A stretch of 12,119 nt of DNA from an uncultured Prevotella sp. (GTDB taxonomy: Bacteria; Bacteroidota; Bacteroidia; Bacteroidales; Bacteroidaceae), in assembly GCA_947303825.1 (NCBI GenBank), contig CAMYZK010000042.1, positions 1-12,119 on the forward strand. Reading direction: 5' to 3'. Within the stretch, counting starts at the first letter, position 1. Every line of letters begins with the position of its first letter. This document shows positions 3,087 through 12,119 of this stretch, in pieces. Below the pieces are notes generated by a model. It saw only the letters and a list, made by a program, of their open reading frames with translations, searched no databases and was not told where the DNA came from. Both the position numbers and the translations under genes were made by a program.

Positions 3087-3376
3087 AAACTTTCGTGGAA
3101 GACAGAGCGTGCTTTGACTTCCGAGCGAGAGCAAGCTCGACCGAAGGTCAAGGGCGTGGTGTCGGCTATGGTTGTTGGGCCGCGCCAAGTGATGCCGACC
3201 GCACCAGGGCGTTGTATATATGGACATTCAGCAGTGTGAATGGAGTTATCGAGTGCAAAAGTAGGCATTGAAAGTACGATAGGCAAGCCAGCGGAACGGA
3301 ATTAACAAGTTTTGCCTGTCTTTAACAATCACCACGCACGCGTAATGTTATAAGCCAACAGAAGTGCAACTCATAC

Positions 3377-3649
3377 TACTGGTGCTACTCGTGCTACTGG
3401 CCACTGATTTTCAACAAGTTAGCGGTAGCATCAATGTCTTTATCGCGCTAACCATTGTGCTACTGGCACTACCAAGAAAAAAAAGACTGCTCGCTGCCAA
3501 GTAAAACAAGTTGTTTTACTGAAAAAGGAGCCTTCCTGTCGGCAAAAGGCCTACACTATCATCTACAGTAGCAGTAGTTCCAGTAGTAGCATGTTGCATT
3601 GGTATAAATGCTTGATAATCAATGGTCAGTAGCACGAGTAGCACCAGTA
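3377..3649. repeat. Nested inverted-repeat element with 23-bp perfect outer arms
   Basis: The left arm 3377-3399 (starts TACTGGTGCTACTCG) is the exact reverse complement of 3627-3649. Pairing extends inward to 3414/3612 with three mismatches (35 of 38). A second, imperfect pair follows: TGCTACTGGCACTACC (3458-3473) against 3571-3590. The centre is a perfect 21-bp palindrome (3500-3520). The left half also holds a local hairpin, GTTAGCG (3418-3424) with CGCTAAC (3446-3452). The arms are themselves built from repeated TGCTACT words, and GTGCTACTGG occurs directly at 3391 and again at 3457. No coding frame runs through it. It could be a non-autonomous mobile element (MITE-like), a dispersed intergenic repeat, or DNA giving a structured RNA; the sequence alone does not decide. 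Confidence 0.8.
3500..3520. repeat. Perfect 21-bp palindrome at the centre of the inverted-repeat element
   Basis: AGTAAAACAA, one G, then TTGTTTTACT: 10-bp perfect arms. Its centre (3510) is within 3 bases of the symmetry centre of the outer arms (3513). Possible protein-binding operator, or the apex of a cruciform or RNA hairpin. Confidence 0.8.
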
Positions 3650-3702
3650 TCACCAGTAGCATCTTTACAAATATTTAGTGTTCCTCAAGTTATTTTCTAC
3701 AA

Positions 3703-3988: not shown

Positions 3989-4510
3989 TCAAATTATCTT
4001 GATGGCGACGGCATGTAGCTGTTGCCAGCCTGCACGGTCGGTGAGGCGAACCATGAAGTGGTAGTCGCCAGGGGCGATGTCGGCAGGGATGAGGATGTCG
4101 TGGCGGGCATCGTACTGGCAGCAACCTGCCGGGATGGTAAAGTCCTGATTGTAGACCCAAGCCTTGCCTTCGCTGTGTTCATGTTCATGCTCGTCATCGT
4201 CATCACACTCTCCCGTGGCGTGGTCGTGATCATGGTCGTCGGCCTCAGTGCTATGCGAGTGGTGGTCGAAGTTGTTGTGTATCTCAATGTTGTAGGCACC
4301 AAGCTCTTCGTCGTCGACCATGACATAGTGGAACGGTATGACATCGCCACGGCTATACACCTGACAGTTGACGGGATTGGCGGTGATACCTTCAGCACTG
4401 ATGACGGGCGGCGTCAGGTCTTTGTCGTCGTCGTTGCTGCAAGCGTTGAAACCAAGTATAAGTATGGTTATGAGAGCCATCGCGAGGCTCATGTTGATAA
4501 TCTTTTTCAT
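3989..4510 (-). CDS. His/Asp-rich DUF4625-like surface lipoprotein, putative metal binder
   Basis: 173 residues. A charged N-terminus and hydrophobic stretch (residues 4-22) lead to C24, the likely lipidated Cys (GFNAC, a relaxed Bacteroidetes lipobox). The next residues, SNDDDKD, form an acidic run of the kind known to send Bacteroidetes lipoproteins to the cell surface. The rest resembles DUF4625-type beta-sandwich lipoproteins: a strand region with GDVIPFHYVMVDDEELG (55-71), an IEIHNN strand, and a C-terminal IPADIAPGDYHFMVRLTDRAG segment. Inserted at 82-113 is a low-complexity loop with nine His and many Asp/Glu (DDHDHDH, EHEHEH), a plausible zinc, nickel or copper ligand cluster. It is the third gene of an operon after a Cys/His-rich membrane protein and a TonB-dependent receptor, and I infer that it captures or buffers metal for that receptor. 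The family assignment is from memory of its fold signature; the metal role is inference. Confidence 0.75.
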   Translation of the reverse strand: MKKIINMSLAMALITILILGFNACSNDDDKDLTPPVISAEGITANPVNCQVYSRGDVIPFHYVMVDDEELGAYNIEIHNNFDHHSHSTEADDHDHDHATGECDDDDEHEHEHSEGKAWVYNQDFTIPAGCCQYDARHDILIPADIAPGDYHFMVRLTDRAGWQQLHAVAIKII

Positions 4511-4513
4511 TGT

Positions 4514-4618
4514 CTTAATTCTTAACTCTTAATTCTTAACTCTTAACTCAAAACTCTTAATTCTTAACTCTTAACTCAAAACTCTTAATTCTTAACTCTT
4601 AACTCTTAACTCAAAACT
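4514..4618. repeat. 15-unit heptamer tandem array overlapping the receptor stop codon
   Basis: 105 bp made of exactly 15 seven-base units with no gaps. Units on the plus strand are A = CTTAATT, B = CTTAACT and C = CAAAACT, in the order A B, A B B C, A B B C, A B B B C. There is thus a 28-bp higher-order unit (ABBC). It fills the whole spacer between the receptor gene and the lipoprotein gene, and the receptor's TGA (4613-4611) lies across the last B/C boundary. Units A and B contain TTAA, giving TAA on both strands. Because 7 is not a multiple of 3, consecutive units place stops in every frame. Confidence 0.95.
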
Positions 4619-6725
4619 CCACCCCCACCATCAGCGAGATGTTGCGCCCGGGTTCGGGCACGTCTATGAGGCGGTAATAGCTGGTGTGGTCGTAGTACCG
4701 GCGGTTGAGCAGGTTGTCGGCATGCAGGGCGATGTTCAGCTTGCTTCCACGCAGGGCAATCTGCTTGCCTGCCGAGAGGTTCAGCGTCCAGTGACCGTCG
4801 GTAGGCTTCTCGGGCGGCACTATGTGGTGTTGAGCTCCCACGATGCGGGCGTCAAGGCCCACGAAGGTGTTGCCATGCCACTGGAATGAGTATTTGGCAC
4901 CTGCATCCACCGACCACGGTGTGCTGAAGGGCAGTGTGTAGCCTTTCTTGTCGCCAGAGAGCTGTTCGGCATAGAGATACTCTCCCTTCATCTCGGCCCC
5001 CCAGTGGCGGTCTATGACCCATGTGGCCTGTGCCTCCACGCCATAGCGCAGCACACGGGCCTGGGTGTAGTGGTAGAGCTGCAGGCCCTCCACATACTGA
5101 GCCGTGGGGTTCAGGTAGATGTAGTTGGGGAAGTAGTTCACGTAGGGGTCCAGCTGCAGGCACACCACGTCGTTGTCCCAGTGGATGCCCAGGTCCAGCT
5201 GGTAGCTCTCCTCCGGGTCGAGAGAGGCATTGCCGCGCTCGTAGCGGAAGATGTGATAGTTCACACCGTCGGCTCCCAGCTCCTTGGGGATGGGCACACG
5301 GAAGCTCTTGCCCGCGTTGGCCTTGAGCACCCAGTGGCCAACGGCATAGTTCACACCAGCCGACCACGTGAGGCTGGTAAAGTCGCGGCCTATAGTGGCC
5401 GAGCGCTCTTTATAGACAGAGTCGGCGTTGACCGTTGGTGTGAGGAACCAGTCGTGATAGCTGCTGATGTGGGTATGCGCGTAGTCCAGGCGGATGCCTG
5501 CGTTGAGTTTCAGACGATCGTTGACGGTATAGCTGTCCATGGCGTATGCACCGACACTCGCCGTTTCAAAGTCGGGGATGATAAATCCCCAGCCACCCCG
5601 GCGGTTGTGCTGATACTCACCGTTCACGCCAGTGCTCAGCTCATGGCGTTCGCCCGGGGTGAGATGGAGGGCGAGACTGGCCGTCAGCGTGTTTTTCACG
5701 AAACGGCGCTCCAGCGTACCGTCGGGTCGCGGCATGTAGCCGTGGCTCACGGGCTCGCTCAGCTCCTCGCGGTGGTTGTTCTGCCAGGCAAGGTTGGCCT
5801 CCACGCGCAAGCCGTCGCCCTGATAGGAGGTGTGGCTGAGCAGCTTCAGGTGGTTCACCCACTGGTAGGGCAGGTCAACGTCGCGCCGCGAATGGTCGTA
5901 GTCAATGTCAGAGAGGCGTACCTCCAGCCCATGGGCGTTGGCAAAGAATCCGCTCTTCGAGTAGCTGTCGGAGATGCGCAGGTCGGTGTGGAAACGATAG
6001 CCCGCATAGCCCACCGTCACGCTGCCGTCGCGCTCGCAGCCGGCGGTGTTGCGCAGTCGCCGGTTCTTAAGCCTTATCCAATAGCTGTAGTACTGAATAC
6101 TGTCTGTGGGCACACGGTAGTCGGCATAGTCGATGAGCGTGGCACCAATGCGATAGAACCAGCCAGCGTGCCGTCCGCCAAGCTTCACCGTCATGCCCAG
6201 CTGCTCGTTGTTAGAGCGTCCGAAGAGCTGTACGCTGCCGCTCAACGGCTCTGTGGGGACATGGTTGGTGTAGAGGTTCAGCACACCGCCAATGGCATCG
6301 CTGCCATAGAGCAATGCCGAAGGGCCCTTCACCACCTCGGCGCGGTCTACTGCAAACTGGTCAATCTCCAGCCCGTGGTCGTCGCCCCACTGCTGTCCCT
6401 CGTGCTTGATGCCGTCCTCGCTCACAACCATGCGGTTGTAGCCCAGGCCGCGTATCGTTGGCTTGGACTGTCCGGAACCTATGGCCATCGCCTTTACGCC
6501 GGGGATGCCTTCTAATGTCTGCATCAGCGAACCCGAGAAATGCTGCTGCAGGTAGTCGTGGCTCACCTGCACCGCCGACTGCGACATGCGCATCTGGAAG
6601 TCACGCTGCCGCTGTCCGCTCACGGTCACGCCCTGTAGCACTACGGTAGTGTCGTCGGGGGCCACATTGCTGTGACTGCCCGACACACATACCATCAGCA
6701 TAGTAGCTAAAATGGATGTTGTCAT
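4611..6725 (-). CDS. TonB-dependent outer-membrane receptor, probable metal/metallophore uptake
   Basis: 704 residues. A short signal peptide (about 1-19) is followed by DDTTVVLQGVTVSG (24-37), which may hold the TonB box. The plug domain (about 45-160) shows LEGIPGVKAM, IRGLGYNRMVVSEDGIKHEG and VVKGPSALLYGSDAIGGVLN (131-150), the classic plug signatures. The remainder is a 22-strand barrel rich in alternating aromatic strands and ends in GVEF, with the terminal Phe recognised by the BAM complex. There is no N-terminal carboxypeptidase-like domain and no SusD partner, so this is not a glycan SusC-type porin; it resembles siderophore/metal receptors, with ZnuD-like receptors among the possibilities. 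The flanking genes encode a Cys/His-rich membrane protein (upstream) and a His/Asp-rich lipoprotein (downstream), supporting a transition-metal substrate. The stop codon lies inside the heptamer array. Substrate is inferred, not seen. Confidence 0.9.
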   Translation of the reverse strand: MTTSILATMLMVCVSGSHSNVAPDDTTVVLQGVTVSGQRQRDFQMRMSQSAVQVSHDYLQQHFSGSLMQTLEGIPGVKAMAIGSGQSKPTIRGLGYNRMVVSEDGIKHEGQQWGDDHGLEIDQFAVDRAEVVKGPSALLYGSDAIGGVLNLYTNHVPTEPLSGSVQLFGRSNNEQLGMTVKLGGRHAGWFYRIGATLIDYADYRVPTDSIQYYSYWIRLKNRRLRNTAGCERDGSVTVGYAGYRFHTDLRISDSYSKSGFFANAHGLEVRLSDIDYDHSRRDVDLPYQWVNHLKLLSHTSYQGDGLRVEANLAWQNNHREELSEPVSHGYMPRPDGTLERRFVKNTLTASLALHLTPGERHELSTGVNGEYQHNRRGGWGFIIPDFETASVGAYAMDSYTVNDRLKLNAGIRLDYAHTHISSYHDWFLTPTVNADSVYKERSATIGRDFTSLTWSAGVNYAVGHWVLKANAGKSFRVPIPKELGADGVNYHIFRYERGNASLDPEESYQLDLGIHWDNDVVCLQLDPYVNYFPNYIYLNPTAQYVEGLQLYHYTQARVLRYGVEAQATWVIDRHWGAEMKGEYLYAEQLSGDKKGYTLPFSTPWSVDAGAKYSFQWHGNTFVGLDARIVGAQHHIVPPEKPTDGHWTLNLSAGKQIALRGSKLNIALHADNLLNRRYYDHTSYYRLIDVPEPGRNISLMVGVEF

Positions 6726-7298: not shown

Positions 7299-10200
7299 AT
7301 GAAAAAAATCCTTTTAGGCTTAATGTTGCTAGCCACAACAGCCAATGCACAGCTGGCCGACGTGACCGTCCAGACCGGCACGTATGGCAATGACTGGGAG
7401 TCGCTCAGTGCTTGGGAGTGCCCCGAATGGTTCAAGGACGCGAAGTTCGGCATCTGGGCACACTGGGGCCCGCAGTGCCAAGCCGAAGACGGCGACTGGT
7501 ATGCCCGCTTCATGTACTATGAGGGCAGCGGTCAGTATAACTATCACGTGAGCCACTTCGACAACCCGAAGGACTTCGGACTGAAAGACCTCTGCAACGC
7601 ATGGAAGGCCGACCAGTGGAACCCGCAGGAACTGGTGAGCCTCTACAAGAGCGTGGGCGCCCGCTACTTCATGGCCCTGGGCAACCACCACGACAACTTT
7701 GACAACTGGAACTCGCCCTATCAGGAGTGGAACTCGGTGAACGTGGGCCCGAAGAAAGACCTCATCAAGGGGTGGAGCGAGGCCTGTAAGGCCGAGGGCC
7801 TGCCGCTGGGCGTCAGCATTCATGCCTCACACGCCTGGACATGGCTGGAACCCTCGCAGAAGTACGATGGCAACCTGAAAAAGGCCGACGGTGCCGGCAA
7901 ATGGTGGGAAGGCCTCGACCCGCAGGAGCTCTATGCCCAGAACCACGCACACTCATCGGGCTGGGAGAACAGCGGCACCATACATAGCCAGTGGGACTGG
8001 GGCAACGGTGCCAGCCTGCCCTCACAGGCCTACAAGCAGAAGTTCCAGAACCGCGTGCTGGAGCTCATCAACGACTACGACCCCGACATGATCTACTTCG
8101 ACGACACGGCCATGCCTTTCTACGGCTGCGACGACCAGATAGGCAAGAACATACTGCAGCACTACTACAACCACAGCGCCGCCCAGCACAACGGCAAGCA
8201 GCAGGTGGTGGTGACCGGCAAGCAGCTCACTGAAGAGCAGAAGGGCTACATGCTGTGGGACGTGGAGCGCGGCATCCCCGACCGTCCGCAGGCCAACTAC
8301 TGGCAGACCTGCACCTGCATCGGCGACTGGCACTACAACCAGAACACCTATAACAACAACGGCTACAAGAGCGGCGCAACGGTCATACGTATGCTCGTCG
8401 ACGTGGTGTCGAAGAACGGCAACCTGCTGCTCAGCATCCCCGTAAAGGGCAACGGCACCATCGACGACAAGGAGCGCAAGGTGCTGGCCGACATCAAGGC
8501 CTGGATGGACATCAACAGCGAAAGCATCTACGGCACACGTACGTGGAAAACCTTCGGCGAAGGCCCGCTGGCCGAAGCCGCCAACCCCATGACAGCCCAG
8601 GGCTTCAACGAGGGACAGGCCTACTCGGCACAGGACGTGCGCTACGTGGAAAAGGAAGGAGCCGTCTATGCCACCATCATGGCCTGGCCAGCAGCTGGTG
8701 CTTTCACCTTCAAGGCCTTCTCTATCGCCGAACCCTCGTATATCGGCCAGGTTGAAAAGGTAACCCTGCTGGGAGGCGGCGACGTGGAGTTCACGCAAGA
8801 CATCAACGGACTCAACGTTCAGATTCCTGCCAAGAAGCCCAACGATATTGCACCCGTGTTCCGCATCACCTTCAGGCTCGACGACCGCACCGCCTATGAA
8901 GTGCTGCAGCAGCTCATCGAGGGGGTTGAAACCTTCATCAGCGAGGCCGCACCCAAAGCTCAAGCCTACAACACCGGCAAGCTCAGCCCTGCCAAGCTCG
9001 ACCAGCTGCGCGACGCCCTCGCCACGGCCAAGAGTGTGCCCGCCGGTTCTGCCGACGACGACTGCGTTGCAGCCCGTGAGACCCTCGCTGCCGCCTACCG
9101 CCTGTTCATCAGCGACGGCATGAACAAGGGCGGTGCCTTCAGTGGCGTCATCGAGGCCAACCTCACCACACAGTACCTCATCGAGGCCAGCGACTTCACC
9201 CGCTCGGCAGGTGGCACAAGCCGCTTCGGCAAACCAAAGAACTGGACGGTGGAGAACTTCAACATCCCCAACGGTGGCGACGGCACCAAGCAAGGCCTTG
9301 ACAAGTACTCTGGCCGCGAAGCCCTGATGCTCGGCGTGTGGAACGATGCCGGCAGCAACACCACAGGCGACCTGAGCAACGCACGCATCTACCGCAAGAT
9401 CACCCTGCCCGCTGGCAAGTACTACTTCGGAGCTGCCTATAACACCACTTACAACATCAACCCACAGGCATATATGTTTGTCAGCAAGACGCTCTGCAAC
9501 ACCGCCGACATTCCCGCTCAGAGCCTGGCCTACTACAGCATCAACAACTGCACGGGCGACCTGAGGCTGCAGGGTCTCTACTTCCAGCTCGACGAGGAGA
9601 CACAGGTATACATCGGCTTCCAGGCCAACCTGCTCAATGGCTCCAGCACCCAGGAGTTCCGCGCCGAACAGGTGGCCCTCTATGCACCCAAGGAGGCACA
9701 GGAGATGCACTCCGCCGAACATGGCTGGCAGAAGATTGACGCTCTGCCCGAAGACGTGAGCCAGCACTTCTTTGCCATCTATGAGCACGGCACTGACAAC
9801 GGGCTGGTGCTCGGCACCGGCAATAAGCAGGGCAACGCCTATCAGACCCTGTGGTACGAGTCGGACGTATACCCCGAAGTGAACAAGAACGCTCTCTTTA
9901 CCTTCGACGCTTTCAACTCCAGCAACCATTCTGGTGCGAAGTTTGACGATACCGCTGAAATGAAATGGCTCGTCATCACCTGCGCCGGCTATCCTGACAT
10001 CTGCCTACAGTCAAACGACAGCCCCAACAACTGGAACTACCGCACCGAGAATAATGGCGAAGGATGGACCGACCGCGCCTACGTCAGGGCCACTTTCGCC
10101 GCTATGCCCGACGTAACTCCGTCGGGCTACTGGAGCATCGCCAACAACAAGGGCGGCATGCTGGGCCGCTACGACGGCAGCGACGAGATTAGCGGCAACG

Positions 10201-10889
10201 CCACCGAGGAGGGCCGCTACGACATCTATGCCATCCTGCGCGGCAACTACGTAGCTGCTGTCGAGAACATCGACAAGGCATCCGAGGAGAATCCCGTCGA
10301 CATCTCCTACGTCATCACCAATGCCGATGCCACCCGCTACAACAACTTCCACGCCAAGCAACCCGTAGGCTGGACACTCTCGCAAGACGATGCCTTCGAG
10401 TGCGAGTACGCCAACTACCTGCCCGCCAAAGTGGGCAATAGCTACTTCAACAAGTGGCAGGGCAGCGGCAACCTCTCCGACCGCACCATCAGCCAGCAGC
10501 TGTCGGACCTGCCCAACGGCAAATACCGCCTCTCCGTACGCACCAGCAGCAGCGTCATCCATTCGGGAGCATCGCTCTTCGCCAATACCGAGAAGGCCGA
10601 CATGACCCAGCTGACCGACAACACCGCCAGCGTCACCACCGAGATTACCAACGGGCTGCTCACCCTCGGCGTGGAACTGAAAAACTACCAAAGCAACGAC
10701 TGTAAGTTCGACCATTTCACCCTGGAATACCTCGGCGACCCCAACGGCACCACAGGCATCAAGCCCATTGGAGACGGAAAACTGAAGCGCAGTCACTCTT
10801 CCATCTTATATGACCTCACTGGCCGCCGCGTCAGCCGTCCCGCCAAGGGATTGTATCTCGTGAATGGCAAAGTGATCGTGATTAAGTAA
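7299..10889 (+). CDS. Secreted multidomain GH29-type alpha-L-fucosidase with T9SS sorting tail
   Basis: 1196 residues; expected to release L-fucose from host or dietary glycans outside the cell. Signal peptide 1-18 (MKKILLGLMLLATTANA-Q). The GH29-like TIM barrel spans about 30-410: FGIWAHWGPQ (50-59, substrate-binding H55), ALGNHHDNFDNWNS (126-139, H130/H131), GVSIHASHAW (171-180), and DPDMIYFDDTAMP (261-273), where D268 aligns with the family nucleophile; NGNLLLSIPVKGNGTID (373-389) closes the barrel. A beta-sandwich follows (about 410-526), then a helical FIVAR-like segment (535-603), a DUF5013-like galactose-binding-fold domain (about 622-797), a region I cannot place (about 805-985), and another beta-sandwich with an LPNGKYRLSV motif (about 1000-1146). 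The tail YDLTGRRVSRPAKGLYLVNG (1171-1190) is a type A T9SS sorting domain. Codon use is strongly C-ending. No SusC/SusD genes are adjacent, so it is not in an obvious polysaccharide utilisation locus. Confidence 0.9.
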   Translation: MKKILLGLMLLATTANAQLADVTVQTGTYGNDWESLSAWECPEWFKDAKFGIWAHWGPQCQAEDGDWYARFMYYEGSGQYNYHVSHFDNPKDFGLKDLCNAWKADQWNPQELVSLYKSVGARYFMALGNHHDNFDNWNSPYQEWNSVNVGPKKDLIKGWSEACKAEGLPLGVSIHASHAWTWLEPSQKYDGNLKKADGAGKWWEGLDPQELYAQNHAHSSGWENSGTIHSQWDWGNGASLPSQAYKQKFQNRVLELINDYDPDMIYFDDTAMPFYGCDDQIGKNILQHYYNHSAAQHNGKQQVVVTGKQLTEEQKGYMLWDVERGIPDRPQANYWQTCTCIGDWHYNQNTYNNNGYKSGATVIRMLVDVVSKNGNLLLSIPVKGNGTIDDKERKVLADIKAWMDINSESIYGTRTWKTFGEGPLAEAANPMTAQGFNEGQAYSAQDVRYVEKEGAVYATIMAWPAAGAFTFKAFSIAEPSYIGQVEKVTLLGGGDVEFTQDINGLNVQIPAKKPNDIAPVFRITFRLDDRTAYEVLQQLIEGVETFISEAAPKAQAYNTGKLSPAKLDQLRDALATAKSVPAGSADDDCVAARETLAAAYRLFISDGMNKGGAFSGVIEANLTTQYLIEASDFTRSAGGTSRFGKPKNWTVENFNIPNGGDGTKQGLDKYSGREALMLGVWNDAGSNTTGDLSNARIYRKITLPAGKYYFGAAYNTTYNINPQAYMFVSKTLCNTADIPAQSLAYYSINNCTGDLRLQGLYFQLDEETQVYIGFQANLLNGSSTQEFRAEQVALYAPKEAQEMHSAEHGWQKIDALPEDVSQHFFAIYEHGTDNGLVLGTGNKQGNAYQTLWYESDVYPEVNKNALFTFDAFNSSNHSGAKFDDTAEMKWLVITCAGYPDICLQSNDSPNNWNYRTENNGEGWTDRAYVRATFAAMPDVTPSGYWSIANNKGGMLGRYDGSDEISGNATEEGRYDIYAILRGNYVAAVENIDKASEENPVDISYVITNADATRYNNFHAKQPVGWTLSQDDAFECEYANYLPAKVGNSYFNKWQGSGNLSDRTISQQLSDLPNGKYRLSVRTSSSVIHSGASLFANTEKADMTQLTDNTASVTTEITNGLLTLGVELKNYQSNDCKFDHFTLEYLGDPNGTTGIKPIGDGKLKRSHSSILYDLTGRRVSRPAKGLYLVNGKVIVIK

Positions 10890-10951: not shown

Positions 10952-11875
10952 ATGAGCATAAAAGAGAACAAACCACTGATAGCGCATCTCTCGATGTTCG
11001 GGGCTTGCGCGTTCTGGGGACTGATGGCACCGCTGGGCAAGGACGCGATGACGCACGGCCTTGACGGACTGACGATGGTGTCGTTTCGTGTACTGGGCGG
11101 ATGTCTACTTTTCTGGCTGACATCGCTCTTCGTAAAGAAGGAATACGTGCCCCTGCGCGACAAACTGATGTTCATCGGTGCGGCTGTGTTCGGACTGGTA
11201 ACCAACCAATGCTGCTACACCATCGGCCTATCGATTACGTCGCCCATCAATGCCTCCATCGTGACCACATCGATGCCTATCTTCGCCATGATCCTAGCGG
11301 CCATCATCCTGAAGGAGCCCATCACGGGCAAGAAGGCGCTGGGCGTGCTCATGGGCTGCAGTGGTGCGCTGATACTTATACTGACATCGGCAGCACATGC
11401 CACTGACAAGGTAGGCGACATTCGCGGCGACCTGCTGTGTCTGGCGGCACAGTTCTCGTTTGCCCTCTACCTGTCGCTATTCAACAAGCTTATCCGCCGC
11501 TACTCGGTATTCACCATCAACAAGTGGATGTTTTTCTGGGCCACGCTGCTGGTCATTCCCTTCACCTCCTCGCATGTGATAGAGACAGTAAGCCAGCCTA
11601 TCCCCACGCAGACGTGGTTGGAGGCTGGCTATGTGGTGTTCTTCGGCACCTACGTGGGCTATATCCTGACGATGATTGGGCAGAAAACGCTGCGGCCTAC
11701 GGTGGTATCGGTCTACAACTACGTGCAGCCCATCGTGTCGGTCATCGTTTCTGTGCTGACAGGCATCGGCGTTCTGAAACCCACCCACGCCCTGGCCGTT
11801 ATCCTCGTGTTCAGCGGTGTTTGGTTAGTGACAAAGTCGAGGAGCCGTGCGGATATGAAGGCAGAAAAAGTTTAG
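10952..11875 (+). CDS. EamA/DMT-superfamily transporter (10 TM)
   Basis: 307-residue inner-membrane protein of the drug/metabolite transporter superfamily with two EamA repeats of about five helices each. Repeat one ends ASIVTTSMPIFAMILAAIIL, then KEPITGKKALGVLMGCSGALIL, the typical fourth/fifth-helix pattern with conserved Pro and acidic residue. Repeat two ends SVYNYVQPIVSVIVSVLTG and ALAVILVFSGVWLV. A short basic tail follows. The usual family length is about 280-310. Members export amino acids, purines or other metabolites; the substrate cannot be read here. ATG at 10952 is 62 bases after the fucosidase stop and lacks a Shine-Dalgarno site. It is followed immediately by a terminator-like hairpin. 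A functional link with the fucosidase is not evident. Confidence 0.92.
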   Translation: MSIKENKPLIAHLSMFGACAFWGLMAPLGKDAMTHGLDGLTMVSFRVLGGCLLFWLTSLFVKKEYVPLRDKLMFIGAAVFGLVTNQCCYTIGLSITSPINASIVTTSMPIFAMILAAIILKEPITGKKALGVLMGCSGALILILTSAAHATDKVGDIRGDLLCLAAQFSFALYLSLFNKLIRRYSVFTINKWMFFWATLLVIPFTSSHVIETVSQPIPTQTWLEAGYVVFFGTYVGYILTMIGQKTLRPTVVSVYNYVQPIVSVIVSVLTGIGVLKPTHALAVILVFSGVWLVTKSRSRADMKAEKV

Positions 11876-11894
11876 CCTATCGGCTGCCGATAGG
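11876..11894 (+). terminator. Hairpin immediately after the EamA stop codon
   Basis: CCTATCGG, CTG, CCGATAGG: a perfect 8-bp stem with a 3-base loop starting at the first base after TAG. The following sequence is pyrimidine-rich (CTTCCCCTTTTACC) rather than a pure T-run, so termination strength is uncertain. The perfect symmetry would also serve a converging transcript from the cas side. Confidence 0.65.
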
Positions 11895-11980
11895 TGACTT
11901 CCCCTTTTACCACGTACCTTGTTCCCCTCCCCCAACGTATTCTACCGCCAGCATCGCATTGTAATGGCATACTTTTTATT

Positions 11981-12012
11981 GTTTCAATCCACGCCCCCGC
12001 AGGGGGGGCGAC
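11981..12012 (-). CRISPR. Solitary type I-C CRISPR repeat
   Basis: A 32-bp unit, on the plus strand beginning GTTTCAATCCACGCCCCC and ending GGGGGGGCGAC. Read on the minus strand it starts GTCGCCCC and ends GTGGATTGAAAC, the hallmark ends and length of type I-C repeats. The internal stem is CGCCCCC (11992-11998) with GGGGGCG (12004-12010). No second copy lies within 100 bases on either side, so there is no array in the window. It points the same way as the adjacent cas1 fragment, as expected for an array downstream of cas1-cas2. The 86 bases between it and the EamA hairpin hold nothing I can identify; they could include old trailer or spacer DNA. Confidence 0.85.
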
Positions 12013-12119
12013 TCATTTCTTTCGCATGGTATTCTTCCTTGTCAACGGAGACTACCACATTCAGCCCATCTTTAGAAAGATAGGCTTCGGGAGTGGTGAT
12101 ATAGAGTGTGTTAAGCAGT
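11984..12119 (-). pseudogene. cas1: 5' fragment of cas1 (type I-C), truncated and fused to the CRISPR repeat
   Basis: The frame enters from beyond the right edge and reads LLNTLYITTPEAYLSKDG, then LNVVVSVDKEE, the characteristic N-terminus of type I-C Cas1, the integrase subunit that inserts new spacers. The family start (usually MKK) would lie two or three codons outside the window. After DKEE the expected core (IPLHNLEGI and onward, with the catalytic Glu/His/Asp) is missing. Instead there are about 19 bases of unrelated sequence (YHAKEM) and then the CRISPR repeat, which is read as SRPPCGGVD and ends at the TGA in GGATTGAAAC (11986-11984). The product would be a peptide of about 48 residues with no active site. 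Most likely a deletion removed the rest of cas1, cas2, the leader and the array. Other cas genes may remain to the right. Confidence 0.8.

Follow-up and report, generated by a model that had tools for sequence, protein, structure and literature searches.

The window, by which is meant the whole 12,119-nt stretch of DNA that was analysed, is the entire contig C42 of a bin of 385 contigs with a completeness of 70.7% (below, G denotes genomes, L fetched stretches, P public proteins and C contigs). At its right-hand end, read along the minus strand, a 5′ fragment of a type I-C cas1 gene is followed by 19 nt, a single CRISPR repeat and a trailer, with a transporter gene as the left bound of the locus (Table 1). 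The contig edge falls within cas1; codons 1–3 and everything upstream are absent because the assembly ends there, and the place of the effector genes (cas3-cas5-cas8c-cas7) would fall past the contig end. Elsewhere in the window, 14-nt tandem units lie between two minus-strand genes (4499–4633), a pair of 57-nt inverted repeats, 81% complementary and spaced by 183 nt, occupies 3365–3661, and 7299–10889 encode a protein of 1196 aa in which alpha-L-fucosidase and DUF5013 domains are accompanied by a fucosidase C-terminal domain.

Table 1. Features at the CRISPR-proximal end of the window
Feature	Position	Strand	Basis
5′ stub of type I-C cas1, codons 4–32	12032..12118	-	Match to TIGR03640; DNA and protein identity to intact cas1
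19 nt, inferred repeat-proximal part of the last spacer	12013..12031	-	No source match in relatives or spacers
Single 32-nt type I-C CRISPR repeat, holding the stop of the stub frame	11981..12012	-	Identical to the G313 array repeat
Array trailer/intergenic region, no further repeat	11876..11980	-	No second repeat found
EamA-family transporter gene, left bound of the locus	10952..11875	+	PF00892, E 1.8e-39

The minus-strand frame starting at 12118 reads LLNTLYITTPEAYLSKDGLNVVVSVDKEE-YHAKEMSRPPCGGVD-stop, where LLNTLYITTPEAYLSKDGLNVVVSVDKEE comprises the 29 residues that correspond to the cas1 codons present. On its own, this stub matched positions 2–31 of the NCBIfam profile TIGR03640 (type I-C Cas1c) with an E value of 6.2e-6 (1.9e-4 in the genome scan). 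Both matches lie well below the cut-off that the profile sets for a whole protein, 385 bits as opposed to 25.6 for the stub by itself, just 29 residues being present. A Pfam search of the short stub gave no match, so that it could not be named in this way. At the DNA level, the nearest cas1 among the fetched relatives was that of G721, which belongs to another genus of the family and carries an intact type I-C locus (92.0% identity over 88 nt), followed by that of G295 (87.5% over the same 88 nt). Both alignments end at 12032, while both of these cas1 genes continue to full length. When the translation was aligned to type I-C Cas1 proteins, all 29 residues were found unchanged in 19 of the best 120 among 7998 scored; a script counting zero mismatches had returned 22 rows, three of which were dropped since the motif was not found in them. 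In those 19 proteins the next residue is R, K or M, and FRIP follows (FRIS in one), where the window reads YHAKEM instead. The homology to cas1 thus ends abruptly after codon 32. The stub belongs to the cas1 of the I-C clade (cas1_DVULG) and, judged by its sequence, is a cut version of a normal cas1 gene. An earlier note on this DNA had read some 30 N-terminal residues of Cas1 on the minus strand, with the coding similarity stopping and a repeat beginning 19 bases further on; both observations proved right, the repeat starting at 12012.

The repeat is exactly that of the array in G313, an intact locus of the same genus with 13 exact copies in stretch L090, and it differs from the repeat of G072 at a single position (31/32). 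It lies 3′ of the cas gene and in the direction of the cas genes, the arrangement seen in intact relatives, in which the same repeat strand starts less than 900 nt after cas2 in 19 of 20 loci (for the 20th, L047, the script placed the first repeat further off than 900 nt). The note's description of a perfect repeat in the orientation of a normal array therefore holds, as does its remark that the repeat supplies the stop codon, an in-frame TGA at 11984–11986 that terminates the cas1 stub frame. No second copy of the repeat was found in the assembly when its 19-nt core was searched with up to two mismatches allowed; the assembly thus has one repeat, where a functional array has at least two and a spacer. 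The trailer matched the fetched relatives with no word longer than 15 nt, and the EamA gene was matched by 140 other genomes of 299 searched, none of the alignments listed for them extending beyond position 11870 of the window. An Rfam search gave no match.

The 19 nt between stub and repeat were compared with several sets of sequences. Nothing beyond 13-nt chance words was found in the fetched relatives, and the best word shared with 593 spacers from 25 loci (mean length, 34 nt) was of 9 nt. By eye, the 19 nt were unlike the bases preceding the first repeat in 16 stretches. With up to three mismatches, only the window's own copies appeared among the fetched loci, and with up to four, the selected loci showed three scattered places, all of them outside arrays. 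We infer that these 19 nt are the remnant of the last spacer.

Within the rest of the assembly, profile and sequence searches revealed no second cas1 in the 70.7%-complete bin. Queries with cas7 from G295 and cas3 from G224 gave no match, and a 7.8-kb DNA query that took in cas5 through the array of the G295 operon recovered the stub and the repeat only; as about 30% of the genome is missing, these results carry little weight. No match to cas2 was seen, the gene being covered solely by the G295 operon query, nor was there a Cas4 match in the window's genome (G000), an incomplete assembly in which cas4 may lie past the contig end. Of the adaptation set cas4, cas1 and cas2, the assembly therefore contains codons 4–32 of cas1 only.

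Comparable loci were sought among relatives. A search for Cas4 covered 398 genomes of the genus. Of its 32 matches, 20 are nearly complete, five are cut at a junction (G049, G072, G097, G203 and G224), one is cut by a contig end and six are weak. Thirty stretches were compared with cas proteins, of which 20 are intact, with cas4, cas1 and cas2 all present, eight are cut (the window and seven others), one is a contig-edge stub and one duplicates the G051 locus. In the window and the seven other cut loci cas1 has been lost (apart from the codons kept in the window) along with part or all of the neighbouring genes, and at least one repeat has been kept. The junctions differ among the seven. In G072, a rhuM gene is followed by a cas4 stub (codons 1 to ∼42) that abuts the first of 14 repeats, and in G051 by a shorter cas4 stub (codons 1 to ∼16) that abuts a single repeat; effector genes are absent from the 14 kb and 18–19 kb fetched, respectively. 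G203 retains cas3-cas5-cas8c-cas7 and a cas4 stub (codons 1 to ∼27), then 9 nt and 10 repeats. G224 has the same effector genes, rhuM and a cas4 stub, the break lying inside a repeat, so that a partial repeat precedes the array. In G097 and G049, the effector genes are followed by a cas4 stub fused to the 3′ end of cas2, and in G244 by a rhuM fragment fused to cas2, leader and array being kept in all three. In the bases before the first repeat of 16 fetched stretches, three cas4 fragments abut a whole or partial repeat. The earlier note had expected an interference complex devoid of adaptation and memory if effector genes survive on the right; five of the seven comparable loci keep cas3-cas5-cas8c-cas7 together with spacers, whereas the window has no complete spacer.

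A gene of the RhuM family (PF13310) lies between cas7 and cas4 in the I-C operon of L049 (7523–8566), and also in L036, L037 (where only its end before cas4 is visible), L038, L040, L090, L091, L094, L110 and L111. These copies are mostly 80–95% identical to that of L049 (69% in one stretch of L094). The likeness persists in L036 and L091 despite a much lower similarity of their cas7 and cas8c, which suggests that RhuM may move independently of the cas genes. RhuM-like stretches also occur on the far side of arrays, in L035 (minus strand, 8002–8325), L038 (minus strand, 12425–13737) and L049 (10551–10802).

Outside the genus, a sample of 399 genomes of the family gave 22 true Cas4 matches, one of them cut. 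This one, in G462 (another genus), runs to about codon 150 of cas4 and is followed by 4 nt and then the array; the stub contains an internal TGA, as a decaying gene would carry. Eight loci from the family search were inspected; seven have cas1 and cas2, and G462 has neither. In a sample of 393 genomes of the order, all 14 true Cas4 matches covered 206 or more of the 225 positions, close to the full length, and one of them holds an internal TGA. An enrichment of cas4 truncation in the genus was considered and rejected: cut genes made up 5 of 26 in the genus (six weak matches and one contig-edge stub excluded) and 1 of 36 elsewhere (excluding one weak match and the already counted G298 from the family, and four weak matches from the order), a difference that is not significant (Fisher P = 0.074). 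With seven loci of the genus and G462 showing comparable joins beside 20 intact loci, the comparison with relatives supports the internal deletion read by the earlier note, and losses of cas4-cas1-cas2 genes from type I-C systems recur in this group.

Short public proteins were also inspected. Among 106 with a Cas4-like start, eight were judged by eye to finish in a translated I-C repeat (P0070, P0071, P0082, P0087, P0144, P0154 and P0163, with P0166 less clear) and five to have a Cas2-like C-terminus (P0116, P0118, P0146, P0161 and P0168). P0154 and P0163 have one junction of cas4 stub and repeat in common and are hence not independent; their sequences differ after the first repeat, hinting at a change of the array after the loss of adaptation or at a rearrangement. 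None of 62 short proteins beginning like Cas1 carried a repeat tail and, at the DNA level, the cas1-repeat join was found in its own genome only among 299 searched, so that the cas1 version has no second example. Three short Cas1-like reading frames (P0029, P0033 and P0040) break at FRIP/FRIPIH, after which come tails such as RECKINCVRL, RECKLNCVKLQ and QYCVKLIFNRL; these may reflect an insertion or a join to the leader. The tails of several short proteins, in both the Cas1 and the Cas4 lists, look like what we take to be translations of sequencing adapters; not every stub in such data is therefore real.

Stub, repeat and flank are arranged and oriented as in an intact locus that has lost its middle. 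The end of the window, a 29-codon cas1 stub joined through 19 nt to one repeat, is most likely the scar of a single illegitimate deletion. The ancestral order would have been cas7-(rhuM)-cas4-cas1-cas2-leader-array, and one deletion reaching from codon 33 of cas1 into the last spacer would have taken out what follows in cas1, together with cas2, the leader and every spacer apart from the 19-nt remnant. The terminal repeat would have stayed in place next to the EamA gene. Three lines of evidence support this view: full-length Cas1 proteins with the identical N-terminus exist, the break falls 19 nt away from the repeat and not at the point where a repeat-mediated assembly join would be expected, and comparable joins occur in eight other loci. 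That the joining was illegitimate is indicated by G244, the sole join for which both parental sequences could be aligned side by side (parent G028), where the parents overlap by ∼2 nt, as in illegitimate deletion. The loss appears to have been a single event, and it may have brought a selective advantage, for example by lowering the cost of, or autoimmunity from, Cas4-Cas1-Cas2. The left breakpoints of eight joins were skewed towards the 5′ end of cas4 plus cas1 (KS P = 0.002), the codon values having been set by hand, G244 omitted because its break lies in rhuM, and the joins being a non-random sample. An internal deletion of the adaptation module and array that left both outer ends, as first proposed, is thus supported as a deletion, and its transporter-side end is seen; the effector side lies past the contig.

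An alternative is that the join arose during assembly, the assembler having crossed the 32-nt repeat, or used a chimeric read at a fork, and joined the trailer to a fragment of a cas1 that is intact in the organism. Repeats are classic points of assembly collapse; the sequence comes from a metagenome bin, the repeat sits 107 nt from the contig end, the exact cas1-repeat join is known from this one metagenomic contig, and the adapter-like tails mentioned above indicate that artefactual stubs exist. A repeat-mediated misjoin would, however, switch at the repeat, whereas here the homology to cas1 ends 19 nt away from it, and the 19 nt share no sequence with the continuation of a normal cas1 after codon 32; even if the repeat had been crossed wrongly, the break between cas1 and the 19 nt would still need explaining. 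The bin contains no other copy of the repeat or of cas1, and the joins of relatives lie away from contig ends, in G072 (C53, 91.7 kb), G203 (C33, 76 kb) and G224 (C51, 54 kb). An assembly artefact therefore seems rather unlikely. The idea that the contig ends at a fork of the k = 141 graph at the repeat edge was dropped, as no overlaps between contig ends were found among 40 contigs and the window (nine of the contigs being compared by their left end only).

The earlier note had also suggested that the join could reflect recombination initiated by the adaptation machinery. In such an accident, Cas1-Cas2 would integrate the 3′ end of a broken cas4 or cas1 into the repeat as a half-site and the DNA in between would be deleted. 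A 3′ end that undergoes half-site integration becomes attached to the repeat at its 5′ edge. The joins in G072 and G051 fall exactly at the repeat, that in G462 within 4 nt of it. The distance from the end of cas homology to the next full repeat was 0, 0, 4, 9 and 19 nt in the DNA loci, with one join inside the repeat, and ∼10, 22 and 25 nt in the protein cases, with two inside the repeat. Three of these 11 array joins lie 0–4 nt from the 5′ edge (P = 0.045 if joins were spread evenly over a unit of 66 nt, the 0–4 nt bin having been chosen with the data already known), or three of six if the DNA joins are taken by themselves (P = 0.007, likewise post hoc). This hint weakens to 3 of 13 (P = 0.07) once the ambiguous P0144 and the pair P0154/P0163, counted as one, are added. 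The other joins speak against the idea: the distance is 19 nt in the window and 9 nt in G203, P0071, P0070 and P0087 are ∼10, 22 and 25 nt off, those of G224, P0082 and P0166 fall inside the repeat, and three DNA loci end in cas2. An accident of adaptation thus finds a weak hint in the whole set and no support at the window junction, for which we consider it very unlikely. Integrase-made joining is a minority idea for the group as well; that Prevotella-group I-C systems have repeatedly been frozen as interference-only by deletions starting close to the 5′ end of cas4/cas1, part of the joins being made by Cas1-Cas2 joining a broken end to the 5′ edge of a repeat, is an unlikely proposition. If true, the machine that writes the memory would delete its own genes and fix that memory. 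Finally, escape from self-targeting, in which a spacer against the cas region made loss of that region advantageous, is a very unlikely explanation: chromosomal targeting is reported by one study to select for genome remodelling (PMC3630108), but no match longer than 19 nt at E 0.05 was found between the 593 spacers (25 loci) and 28 stretches with their arrays masked. This is a weak result, as such a deletion takes the newest spacers with it and a distant target would escape the search.

Under the preferred reading, a deletion, the window locus is predicted to acquire no new spacers through machinery of its own, as its 29-codon stub cannot encode Cas1. As it has a single repeat and lacks a whole spacer, the remnant is also predicted to yield no crRNA and to be an inert array. 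Relatives that suffered the same loss but kept an array may still interfere by means of old spacers. The window thus shows, base by base, a scar left by the loss of CRISPR adaptation, and the eight comparable loci indicate that such loss has been repeated in the group; in these losses at least one repeat, usually the array and often the effectors remain. The frequency with which CRISPR memory is frozen in bacteria, and the reason for it, thereby become open to test, and the junctions can be used to compare Cas1-made, slippage-made and selected deletions.

Among the titles and abstract openings listed from open-licence PMC papers, none described a cas4 or cas1 stub joined to a repeat in Prevotella. 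Related losses have been described. In Bacteroides fragilis, truncated type I-B loci contain a cas1 fragment (252 of 1014 bp) and an array of up to eight spacers, for which the authors favour a single deletion event that crippled acquisition (PMC5704556). As proposed for the window, an internal deletion left a fragment of cas1; in B. fragilis the fragment adjoins a kept array, the 5′ end of cas1, cas4, cas7, cas8b6 and cas3 having been lost and cas2 and cas6 retained, whereas the window is of type I-C and keeps the 5′ end of cas1, 19 nt from the last repeat and with no spacer (PMC5704556). A natural loss of cas1 in type I-C is also described for the pKLC102-element systems of Pseudomonas aeruginosa, where a cas1 frame shift is common to two lineages with dissimilar spacers, one of which includes PaLML1, a strain whose function was tested; there the gene is frame-shifted and the array is kept and varies, while in the window a deletion would have joined a cas stub to the repeat (PMC7913775). 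Type I-E loci of Streptomycetaceae have an array and effectors, lack cas1-cas2 and are consistently associated with tnsB/tnsC; like the loss class discussed here, they are seemingly competent for interference without an adaptation module (PMC8730458). Other reduced subtypes are also described as lacking adaptation modules (PMC12669027). The loss of adaptation modules is thus already known in print, and the window adds a recurrent example, resolved to the base.
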